Assembly: GCA_016194975.1 (NCBI GenBank) | Contig: JACQAM010000022.1 | Location: forward strand, 62,001 to 126,000 | Direction of reading: 5' to 3' | Source: Bacteroidota bacterium | GTDB taxonomy: Bacteria > Bacteroidota > Bacteroidia > Palsa-965 | Length of the DNA stretch: 64,000 bases | In this document: one piece after another, positions 42,889 through 46,611 of the stretch | How the letters are laid out: every line of letters starts with the position of its first letter | Numbering within the stretch: position 1 is the first letter of the stretch | Notes under the pieces: generated by a model | Database searches by the model: none | The model's input: only the letters and a program-made list of their open reading frames with translations | Told to the model about the DNA's origin: nothing | Position numbers and translations under genes: made by a program

Positions 42889-45255
42889 ATGCACATCATC
42901 ACCAGTTTCTTCTTACAGAAGAAAAACCTCTGTTTCTTTTTTCTTCTTTTCAGTTGCATTCTTTACTCGCAGGATGTTCCCATCGGCGGCTGGAAAATGC
43001 ACTTGCCGTACATTTCCTGCAGGTATGTTACGGGATCTTCTTCATCTATCTGGACCGCTACGGACAATGGACTTTTCAAACTCAACAAATCAGATTATTC
43101 GGTAGAACGCATTACAAAAATTGACGGACTGAGTGATCTGAATGTCGGCGCCATAAATTATAACGCTGCGAATGATCTTCTCGTGGTTGGATATAAGAAT
43201 GGGAACATTGATCTCGTTCACGGAACAACCATCACGAATCTGAACGACATAAAACGTGCACAGATCATCGGCGATAAAGCGATACACAATATTTTTTTCG
43301 TGGGAACGCTCGCCTATCTTTCCACCGGTTTCGGAATTGTGGTGATCGATACACAACGCAACGAAGTAAAAGATACATACTACATCGGCCCTAATGGAAC
43401 TTACGTGGAAGTGTATGACATCACCACCGATGGCATTACTCTTTATGCAGCAACAGAACAGGGAATTTATTATGCACCCATCAACTCTCCTTTCCTTTCC
43501 AATTTTGCAACCTGGCAAACTTTCACCAATATTCCCAATGCAACTTCAGCCGGACATTTTCCTAACCTGGTTTTCTTTAATAATCATCTTATCGCAAATT
43601 ACGAACCCACTTATCCTGTTTATACACTCGACCGCGGAATAATTTTCACTTACGATATTGCTGCGAACAATTGGGATACTCTTTACGATTCAATAAATGT
43701 CCGCGATCTGTATGTGAGCGCTGATAATAAAGTTTATGCGGCTTCGAATTATTTCACGTTTGCTTTTGACGCCTCACTCACCAGCTTCAGCGAACTTTTT
43801 TATTCCATTGATAATTTCGGGCCACTGTTCCCGAGAAATATTTTTGTCGAGCAAAATGGCGATACGTGGGAAGCGGATGAAGAATATGGTTTGGTGAAAA
43901 TGATCACTCCCACACTCGGACAATCATATTATCCGAATGGGCCGGTAAGCATTAGCGCGTATGCAATGACAGAAGAAAATGGAGAATTACTTACCGTGAC
44001 CGGCGGGCACGATGATGCATGGAATAATGTTTACAACAATGAAGGAGTCTCTCTTTACAATAATAGTTTGTGGACAGACTACACCAAAAAACAGGTTTCC
44101 GCTTTCGATACAATTTCCGATCTGCTCGCTTGCGCAATTGATCCGAACGATCCGAATCATTACTGGCTCGGATCATGGGGAAGAGGATTGGTGGAGATGA
44201 ATGGATCCTCCGTTGCGCATGTGTGGGATAATTCCAATTCTACACTTCGTTCAAAATCGCAGTACCAGTGGGTGGGAATAGGAGGGTTGCAATATGATGA
44301 CAATAATAATTTGTGGGTGGTGAATTCGTATGCACTCACCATGCTCAACGTTTACAAACCAGATGGAACCTGGCAGGCATTTGATTTCTCCGGCTACATT
44401 CCCGACGGCGAAACCGGAAGCCAGATGATGATCACTTCAAAAGGACAAAAATGGATCATTCTTCCGCGCGGCGAAGGCATGCTTGTTTTTGATGATAACG
44501 GAACGCTCACCAATACCAGCGACGACAGAAAAATAAGATTGGGTTTCACTGCAGGATCAGGCGGACTTCCCGGATCTGAACTTTATTCAATGGCAGAAGA
44601 TGATGATGGTGAAATATGGGTGGGAACCGATCAGGGTGTTGCTGTTTATTATTGCGCAGAAAATATTTTTACTCCCGGCGCGTGCGATGCACAACAGATC
44701 CTGATCACACAGGATGGAAATGTGCAGATCTTGCTTGAAACACAAGTGGTGACAAGCATCGTGGTTGATGGCGCAAACAGAAAATGGATTGGCACAGAAG
44801 GCGGCGGAGTTTTTCTCATGTCGTCTGACGGGCAAAAAGAACTCGAACATTTCACAGCAGACAACAGCCCGCTTCTTTCCGACGACATCACCTCGATGGC
44901 CATTGATAAAAAAACCGGCGAACTTTTCATTGGCACTTCCAAAGGAATTGTTTCTTATCGCGGCGAAGCAACGGAAGGCGGAGAAACAAACAGCGATGTG
45001 TATGCATTCCCGAACCCGGTGTCGCCGGATTACCACGGAACAATTGCAATTACAGGACTCGTGAAAAATGCTGATATAAAAATTACCGATGTAAGCGGAC
45101 AACTTATTTATAAAACAACAGCGCTCGGCGGACAGGCAATCTGGGATGGAAATAATTTTAAAGGAGACCGTGCTGCAAGCGGAGTTTATCTCGTTTACAT
45201 TTCGAATGCAGATGGATCACAGAAAGCGGTGACTAAAATTCTGCTTATTAACTAA
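42889..45255 (+). CDS. porZ: Type IX secretion system protein PorZ
   Basis: 788 residues with signal peptide ending ILYSQ. The start of the mature protein, VPIGGWKMHLPYISCRYV, then VERITKIDGLSDLNVGAINY, LNDIKRAQIIGDKAIHNIFF and YLSTGFGIVVIDTQRNEVKD match the PorZ N-terminal propeller; further Reg_prop-like blades follow (GEIWVGTDQGVAVYY), and the tail (YAFPNPVSPDYHG ... SGVYLVYISNADG) is a sorting-type domain. PorZ is part of the T9SS attachment complex at the cell surface, helping to deliver anionic LPS to cargo in Porphyromonas. It precedes the GxxExxY gene and recO. Confidence 0.9.
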   Translation: MHIITSFFLQKKNLCFFFLLFSCILYSQDVPIGGWKMHLPYISCRYVTGSSSSIWTATDNGLFKLNKSDYSVERITKIDGLSDLNVGAINYNAANDLLVVGYKNGNIDLVHGTTITNLNDIKRAQIIGDKAIHNIFFVGTLAYLSTGFGIVVIDTQRNEVKDTYYIGPNGTYVEVYDITTDGITLYAATEQGIYYAPINSPFLSNFATWQTFTNIPNATSAGHFPNLVFFNNHLIANYEPTYPVYTLDRGIIFTYDIAANNWDTLYDSINVRDLYVSADNKVYAASNYFTFAFDASLTSFSELFYSIDNFGPLFPRNIFVEQNGDTWEADEEYGLVKMITPTLGQSYYPNGPVSISAYAMTEENGELLTVTGGHDDAWNNVYNNEGVSLYNNSLWTDYTKKQVSAFDTISDLLACAIDPNDPNHYWLGSWGRGLVEMNGSSVAHVWDNSNSTLRSKSQYQWVGIGGLQYDDNNNLWVVNSYALTMLNVYKPDGTWQAFDFSGYIPDGETGSQMMITSKGQKWIILPRGEGMLVFDDNGTLTNTSDDRKIRLGFTAGSGGLPGSELYSMAEDDDGEIWVGTDQGVAVYYCAENIFTPGACDAQQILITQDGNVQILLETQVVTSIVVDGANRKWIGTEGGGVFLMSSDGQKELEHFTADNSPLLSDDITSMAIDKKTGELFIGTSKGIVSYRGEATEGGETNSDVYAFPNPVSPDYHGTIAITGLVKNADIKITDVSGQLIYKTTALGGQAIWDGNNFKGDRAASGVYLVYISNADGSQKAVTKILLIN

Positions 45256-45292
45256 GCGGGAAGATTACAGATCTGCGGGAATACAGATTACA
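45256..45292. repeat. Left inverted repeat of the GxxExxY cassette
   Basis: GCGGGAAGATTAC (45256-45268) and GGAATACAGATTACA (45278-45292) recur as exact reverse complements at 45872-45884 and 45847-45861. It begins at the base after the porZ stop. Confidence 0.85.
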
Positions 45293-45348
45293 GATCGGAA
45301 GGATCTAAGATATTTTCAGATTATTTATTCAGGCGAAAACAATTCATA

Positions 45349-45356
45349 TACATTTG
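45349..45356 (+). promoter_or_regulatory. -7 box TACATTTG before the GxxExxY gene
   Basis: Perfect TAnnTTTG, 16 bases before the ATG, so the cassette carries its own promoter. Confidence 0.5.
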
Positions 45357-45372
45357 CACAAAATAATATTAT

Positions 45373-45819
45373 ATGAAAGCCACTTACAAAAGTAATTTTA
45401 TTCATGCAGATTTAAGTTACAAAATCATTGGATGTGCAATGTCGGTTTACAATTCTCTCGGGCCCGGGCATCTTGAAAAAGTTTATCAGAAAGCTTTGGG
45501 AATTGAACTACGAAAAGCAGGATTGAATGTAAACGAAGAAGTAATGTGTGATGTCTATTACGATGGAATAAAAGTCGGACAGTCGCGCGCTGATTTTCTC
45601 GTTGAGGAAAAAATTCTGATTGAGATAAAAAGAGGGAGTTCCATGATTCCTGCAGATTTTAATCAACTGAAGAAATACCTGGCTGCAAAAAATCTTGAAC
45701 TCGGACTTTTATTCAGATTCGCTCCCGAACAATTAATCTATAAGCGAGTTGTTAATCTTTCCGGGTATTCAAAAGTTGAAGAACCAAATAAAAACTATCA
45801 ATTGCGCAACACTGCTTGA
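45373..45819 (+). CDS. GxxExxY protein
   Basis: 148 residues; the family motif is GPGHLEKVYQ, with the further conserved stretches ADFLVEEKILIEIKRG and FNQLKKYLAAKNLELGLLFRF. The fold (strand, ADF, IEIK) resembles PD-(D/E)XK nucleases, but no activity has been assigned that I know. The gene lies between porZ and recO, within two-part inverted repeats, and has its own promoter. This fits a mobile or captured gene. Confidence 0.9.
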   Translation: MKATYKSNFIHADLSYKIIGCAMSVYNSLGPGHLEKVYQKALGIELRKAGLNVNEEVMCDVYYDGIKVGQSRADFLVEEKILIEIKRGSSMIPADFNQLKKYLAAKNLELGLLFRFAPEQLIYKRVVNLSGYSKVEEPNKNYQLRNTA

Positions 45820-45846
45820 CGATAAAATCGCGCATCTGGTTTTATT

Positions 45847-45884
45847 TGTAATCTGTATTCCGTAAAAATTCGTAATCTTCCCGC
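45847..45884. repeat. Right inverted repeat of the GxxExxY cassette
   Basis: Counterpart of 45256-45292; ends one base before the GTG start of recO. Confidence 0.85.
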
Positions 45885-45885
45885 T

Positions 45886-46611
45886 GTGCTTACGACCACC
45901 AAAGGAATTATTTTCCATACCGTCCCTTATTCCGACAGCCGCGTCATTGCAAAAATTTATACGGAGAATTCCGGAGTGCAGTCGTTCATCATTTCTGTTT
46001 CGAGAAGTAAAAAAGCCAAAATAAAAAACAGTTTTCTTCAACCACTCACGCTCGTTGAAGTTGTTTCCGATCAGCGCGAAAGAAAAGAACTGCATCACGC
46101 GCGTGAGATTTCCTGCTTTTCTCCTTATCAGCACCTGCAGGACGATGTTGTAAAAACCAGCATTGCTCTTTTCATTGCAGAAGTGCTTTACAAATCAGTA
46201 AAAGAAGAAGAAGCAAATCCCCAATTATTTTCTTTTCTCGTGCACTCGCTGCAGATCCTCGACCTGAAACACGAAGGCGTTGCAAATTTTCATTTGTGTT
46301 TTCTCGTCCAGCTTTCAAAATTCCTGGGATTTTATCCGCAACCGAATTCTGCCGGTGAAAAAAGTGTGTTCGATCTGCGCGATGGGATTTTTCGTCCGCA
46401 TATTCCGCCGCATCCGCTTTTTCTCGAAGTGAATGAATCGCGCTTGCTGGAAAATATTATGTCGCTCTCATTCGAAAATATGCAAACACTTTTACTGAGC
46501 GGCGAGATCCGCGGAATGATGGTGAAACATTTACTGCGGTATTATGAATTGCATTTACATTCCATGAATGAAGTAAAATCGCATCATATTTTGGAAACGG
46601 TTCTCAACTGA
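45886..46611 (+). CDS. recO: DNA repair protein RecO
   Basis: 241 residues from GTG. The OB-fold start TTTKGIIFHTVPYSDSRVIAKIYTENSG and the strand FIISVSRSKKAK are typical, as is the helical part (LFIAEVLYKSV, LKHEGVANFHLCFLVQLSKFLGF). No zinc-finger cysteines are seen, as in many Bacteroidota RecO proteins. RecO loads RecA on SSB-coated DNA together with RecR. The right repeat of the GxxExxY cassette ends directly before the start, so its expression signals may lie within the cassette. Confidence 0.93.
   Translation: MLTTTKGIIFHTVPYSDSRVIAKIYTENSGVQSFIISVSRSKKAKIKNSFLQPLTLVEVVSDQRERKELHHAREISCFSPYQHLQDDVVKTSIALFIAEVLYKSVKEEEANPQLFSFLVHSLQILDLKHEGVANFHLCFLVQLSKFLGFYPQPNSAGEKSVFDLRDGIFRPHIPPHPLFLEVNESRLLENIMSLSFENMQTLLLSGEIRGMMVKHLLRYYELHLHSMNEVKSHHILETVLN

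Follow-up and report, generated by a model that had tools for sequence, protein, structure and literature searches.

REPtrons consist of a single-copy gene, encoding an HuH tyrosine transposase, that lies between inverted copies of a dispersed palindrome (PMC3116915, PMC6006769, PMC8266576). In TIRtrons, or TIRYTs, a tyrosine transposase gene stands between long terminal inverted repeats that also occur as dispersed copies (PMC3733652). In the 23S rRNA IVS of Coxiella, three tandem heptamers (GACAGAT) precede the S23 ORF (PMC4990558). The spreading of its own palindromes is so far known only from an enzyme family unrelated to the one considered here. Here we analyse a GxxExxY gene enclosed by inverted repeats in the gap between porZ and recO, and we consider it probable that it belongs to a system that resembles REP/RAYT pairs but relies on an unrelated enzyme, with GxxExxY recognising its cognate palindrome and spreading it.

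The element lies in a window of 64,000 nucleotides (the whole stretch of DNA that was analysed), between the plus-strand host genes porZ (42889-45255; NF052228 match) on its left and recO (45886-46611; TIGR00613 match, GTG start at 45886) on its right. It measures 629 bp, and the GxxExxY gene (45373-45819, plus strand, 148 aa) is the sole gene inside. The left arm (45256-45295, plus strand) is made up of an outer part (GCGGGAAGATTAC, 45256-45268), a 9-nt spacer (45269-45277), and an inner part (45278-45295), and it is one copy of a dispersed repeat of approximately 40 bp with the consensus GGGAGGATTACAGATTTTTACGGAATACAGATTACAGAT. The right arm (45844-45884, minus strand) is an inverted copy of the left-arm repeat, with its inner part at 45844-45861, a 10-nt spacer at 45862-45871, and its outer part (GTAATCTTCCCGC) at 45872-45884. 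A preliminary description of this DNA had reported exact reverse-complement repeats of 13 (outer) and 15 (inner) bases with spacers of 9 and 10 bases, fitted precisely between the two host genes, and both statements are correct to the base: the outer arms match exactly over 13 nt (14 nt when A45255 and T45885 are included), the inner arms match exactly over 15 nt (GGAATACAGATTACA, 45278-45292; TGTAATCTGTATTCC, 45847-45861) and over 18 nt at 94% when extended, the left arm starts at the base after the porZ stop, and one base (45885) lies between the right arm and the recO start codon. The preliminary description also credits the GxxExxY gene with its own promoter; the -7 promoter consensus of Bacteroidota is TAnnTTTG, and on comparison with it TACATTTG (45349-45356, plus strand) can be read as a candidate -7 box of the gene.

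The identity of the enclosed gene, also proposed in the preliminary description, was confirmed by matches to TIGR04256 (115.9 bits, cut-off 35) and PF13366 (112.7 bits, cut-off 22), PDDEXK_3 being the only Pfam match of the protein. In window numbering, the G-x2-E-x2-Y motif (G32, E35, Y38), D74, E84, and K86 are invariant and Q98-x3-Y102 is nearly so; the residues of the window protein fall in the invariant columns of alignments A1 and A3, and the D...ExK active site is intact. The AlphaFold2 model of the window protein is good (pLDDT 87), and its best match among solved folds is 4ic1 (Z 10.5), the Cas4 protein SSO0001, followed by lambda-type exonucleases (LHK-Exo, lambda exo), restriction enzymes, and Hjc. 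Judged by HMM matches, motif, and predicted fold, the product is a predicted PD-(D/E)XK nuclease of the Cas4/RecB/lambda-exonuclease type, the fold giving the type of nuclease and not its function. While the window protein resembles Cas4, RecB, and lambda exonuclease in its nearest solved folds, in weak Cas4 HMM matches, and in the D, ExK, and QxxxY residues, it is smaller, it has only two cysteines, neither of them conserved and too few for the four-cysteine iron-sulphur cluster of Cas4, and no CRISPR or phage recombination genes adjoin the gene. A search of PDB chains by sequence with GxxExxY returned no match. A role in a defence system was considered and set aside, PADLOC giving only weak Cas4 matches.

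GxxExxY is present in 40 of 59 relatives, with 20 matches in one of them. When the flanks of other GxxExxY genes were compared, as the preliminary description had suggested, most genes were found to be enclosed by similar repeats, cognate rather than identical. The first set consisted of 80 GxxExxY loci from relatives (26 genomes, 19 families); for each gene, we scored the best inverted repeat spanning it and compared this with similarly sized ORFs of those loci. A second, independent set was drawn from a genome collection, mainly of Bacteroidota with some records of other phyla, the scan of which needed an alignment of closer sequences because a diverse alignment held no sufficiently conserved stretch. 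At a threshold score of at least 16, 57/80 GxxExxY genes were flanked as opposed to 9/325 control ORFs in the first set (Fisher p 8e-41), and 38/74 as opposed to 6/298 in the second (p 5e-25); because related species are not independent, these p-values overstate significance, yet both sets show a large contrast (51-71% of GxxExxY genes against 2-3% of control ORFs). Approximately 29% of the GxxExxY genes of the first set and 49% of the second lack a clear inverted repeat at this threshold. The second set contains misbinned contigs that enter into its taxonomic range, and single records of an odd phylum were not relied on; one record titled Rhizobium (L154) is syntenic with Flavobacterium loci and is probably such a contig. 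The few high-scoring controls are mostly other small repeat-associated genes, encoding for the most part four-helix-bundle (23S rRNA IVS) proteins, with one IS200-type transposase and one GIY-YIG nuclease. Mainly phage-borne carriage of GxxExxY was also considered and not retained, as only 3 relatives turned up in viral contigs with the query used.

The flanked units have a common architecture, with a median length of approximately 517 bp and arms of a median of 38 bases in which a 7-9-base unit usually occurs three or four times in direct orientation (for example CCACGGATT-TTCACAGATT-ATGCACAGATT). Direct 5-mer repeats occur in 87/95 arms (36 expected, maximum 49), most commonly at a spacing of 8-10 bases, and the commonest outer terminus is (A/G)CC(A/G)C. 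GxxExxY lineages differ in their repeat motif, clade motifs including ACGAA, CATAG, CAGATT, CGCAAAG, and CACTAAA, and the motif goes with the protein. Arm similarity tracks protein similarity (0/2000 permutations), and in non-syntenic pairs from different genomes (113 elements) the Mantel rho is 0.343 (0/1000 permutations), in comparison with 0.081 (55/1000) for control sequence lying 70-120 bp beyond the arms. The arms of a given gene have further copies at 8.4/Mb in its own genome versus 0.57/Mb in other genomes; 47 such copies were observed, against a permutation mean of 5.9 and a maximum of 26 in 5000 permutations, and one locus (L133) alone contributes 11.

The genome that carries the window provides an internal example of this specificity. 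It has four near-complete GxxExxY genes and one fragment; all four are enclosed by long inverted repeats, the repeat differs from gene to gene, each repeat is dispersed, and each gene is single-copy with its own repeat. The fragment (L254, at G000:C8:251287) is a decayed remnant of approximately 40 codons between CACAGAG-type arms; it is an internally deleted derivative and shows how internal deletion yields a short derivative.

Copies of the window repeat were counted by searching its own genome with element and hairpin queries. The element query hit two paralogous GxxExxY genes besides the element itself, as well as approximately 40 short arm matches, and the hairpin query gave 52 matches, which by our count correspond to approximately 28 places; the same query gave no match in 13 relatives, 6 of them congeners. 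The window repeat is not a chance occurrence, given this restriction to its own genome and an inverted-repeat score (20.5) that is equalled or exceeded in about 2% of control ORFs. A second repeat family, cognate to the C3 gene, has 18 matches in the genome and none in the 13 relatives. Short copies of the window repeat are mostly hairpins of 110-150 bp with ends GGGAGGATTAC...GTAATCCTCCC and two-part arms as in the window; as single strands they fold strongly (z -11 to -15), and 16/19 lie mostly outside long ORFs. Three of them (L234, L236, L247) also have their loop in common, in either orientation, and were therefore copied as units. In another window-type hairpin (L244:1111-1432), the loop contains a palindrome of the CCACAAAGACACAAGG type. 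The lack of copies in congeners, the loops common to several copies, and the nesting of one family in another are signs of recent spread. No GTAG or CGTC foot is present at the repeat ends, and the aligned arms begin with GGGAGGATTAC. Compensatory covariation was not detected in the hairpin arms (16/132 against a shuffled fraction of 0.10), which gives no support to recognition of a folded hairpin; what the two arms keep is an identical repeat sequence. A RAYT was considered as mobiliser of these repeats and rejected, as the genome has three Y1 transposases and none of the three loci has a window-type motif nearby.

The suggestion in the preliminary description that the element might be a self-contained mobile unit stands in part: its insertion fits, and the junction is empty in relatives, but what has multiplied is the short hairpin and not the gene-bearing unit. 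In all eight relatives in which both neighbours were found, porZ and recO are contiguous and the gene is absent, the junction being otherwise intact. The gap measures 0-76 bp in seven of these; in the eighth (G006) it measures 227 bp (L143:1274-1501) and contains a three-fold tandem palindrome of approximately 57 bp. The gap of another congener, G001 (L142:1423-1501), contains a different short hairpin of approximately 75 bp, and the presence of unrelated palindromes at porZ-recO in these two congeners indicates that this junction is a landing place, or insertion hotspot, for palindromes. Syntenic partners without the gene were also found at other loci (e.g. L105, L066, L069, L071, L128, L202, L211), and in the deoC-aldehyde dehydrogenase cluster and at cysD-cysN insertions occupy different junctions in different genomes. 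The empty site at L066 (L066:14295-14317) keeps GCGGTTAA, a sequence similar to the termini of the arms in L105, where that junction carries an element; it may be either a scar or a preferred target. Target-site duplications were not seen by eye at the ends of hairpins or elements, and the relatives are too diverged for exact sites. In Flavobacterium, one GxxExxY gene occupies one locus in at least seven records with a dN/dS of 0.04-0.10, a pattern that points to long vertical retention of a working protein under strong purifying selection, as in RAYTs.

Comparison with the systems outlined above places the element nearest to the REP/RAYT pair (TnpA-REP; REPtron). In both, the palindrome that flanks the gene in inverted orientation is also dispersed between genes as two-armed hairpins, there is one full-length gene per repeat type (here four genes and four repeats), and gene and repeat co-evolve. 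The enzyme, however, is a predicted PD-(D/E)XK nuclease and not an HuH tyrosine transposase (Y1_Tnp, PF01797), and its arms, approximately 40 nt in length, lack the GTAG foot and consist of direct 7-9-nt units. TIRtrons likewise enclose a gene in terminal inverted repeats of a dispersed family, but their HuH tyrosine transposases have a fold unrelated to that of GxxExxY. The 23S rRNA IVS is a compact selfish element with a small ORF, and the Coxiella heptamers are like the arm units of GxxExxY; it differs in encoding a four-helix-bundle protein without a nuclease domain and in its site, rRNA helix 45. In contrast to an insertion sequence (DD(E/D) transposon), the unit encodes no DDE transposase, its sole gene being PDDEXK_3. 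The REP/RAYT pair is a closer likeness than a simple insertion sequence, because each gene is single-copy with its own repeat, it is the hairpins that have multiplied, and the Flavobacterium locus has been retained vertically.

The principal competing explanation, which we regard as unlikely, is that an unknown transposase of the host or of a mobile element recognises the repeat ends and that GxxExxY is a beneficial passenger, the cargo of a large MITE. Four-helix-bundle genes, which have no nuclease fold, share the same repeat architecture, so that a third party could act on both, and neither a target-site duplication nor any junction marks GxxExxY as the integrating enzyme. A passenger is not expected to determine the ends, however, and clade-specific repeats argue against this explanation: the motif follows GxxExxY phylogeny at non-syntenic loci, and each gene within one genome has its own repeat. 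The lack of a window-type motif at the three Y1 transposase genes also speaks against it. It is somewhat less probable still that GxxExxY is a homing-type selfish nuclease that cuts element-free intergenic sites into which repair then copies the element, with repeats that mark or protect it and hairpins left as deletion remnants. The compact single-gene unit, the empty sites, the vertical retention in Flavobacterium, the internally deleted remnant L254, and the likeness of GCGGTTAA at the L066 empty site to the L105 arm ends would all suit such a nuclease, but homing is site-specific, and hairpins at some 28 unrelated sites, several with the same loop, are not what independent deletion remnants would produce.

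The repeats might instead be regulatory or structural (terminators, RNA stems, or supercoiling sites), that GxxExxY maintains or processes in the service of the host, selfish spread playing no part. Strong folding, a mostly intergenic location, and purifying selection on the gene agree with such a role, which we nevertheless judge very improbable since the family is missing from all congeners searched, copies have loops in common, and one family is nested in another. Coincidence, with ordinary intergenic hairpins happening to flank the gene, would draw on the abundance of intergenic hairpins in these genomes and on the unrelated hairpins at porZ-recO in relatives, but it is already refuted by the counts for control ORFs in both sets, and its probability is negligible.

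Under the preferred REP/RAYT-like reading, the 629-bp unit would be the autonomous, gene-bearing member of a nuclease-palindrome pair, and the 110-150-bp hairpins its non-autonomous members. The GxxExxY protein would bind the 7-9-nt units that recur in its cognate repeat and cut at the palindrome, which could be either duplex DNA or a hairpin that becomes exposed in single strands during replication; the palindrome, released or copied, would then be inserted again at a different intergenic position. Such moves would be rare for the gene-bearing version and more frequent for the hairpins. Recognition of duplex units and recognition of either arm singly are equally possible. The data establish the association of gene and repeat, its specificity, the dispersal of the repeat, insertion, and constraint on the gene; from these we infer catalysis and transposition, with the nuclease as the agent that both reads the short units and brings about their dissemination.

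If this is so, a very common Bacteroidota family of unexplained role would gain a function, many bacterial intergenic repeats would gain an origin, and REP-like sequences would have a second, non-HuH route. With a short recognition unit particular to each protein lineage, GxxExxY would, in addition, offer a large natural collection of sequence-specific nucleases with a code readable from the flanking DNA. Among open-licence papers, two of which mention the family without treating repeats, we found no published account of GxxExxY with repeats, although absence from the literature is not thereby certain. The chances seem evenly balanced that GxxExxY constitutes a new class of stand-alone DNA-mobility nuclease, that it accounts for many intergenic palindromes, as its footprints, in Bacteroidota and some other phyla, and that the S23 four-helix-bundle genes form a parallel system.

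Four-helix-bundle genes (TIGR02436 / 23S rRNA IVS) were found within inverted repeats of short tandem units, different for each gene, at L263-L266 (G000 C7, C23, C4), L108, L119, L162, L175, and L181, and these elements amount to a parallel system with a non-nuclease protein. At one further locus (L099:7501-7794), the inverted repeat TGTCACCCTGAGCTTGTCGAAG lies on both sides of an ORF for a GIY-YIG nuclease, and this is possibly a third enzyme type with cognate palindromes.
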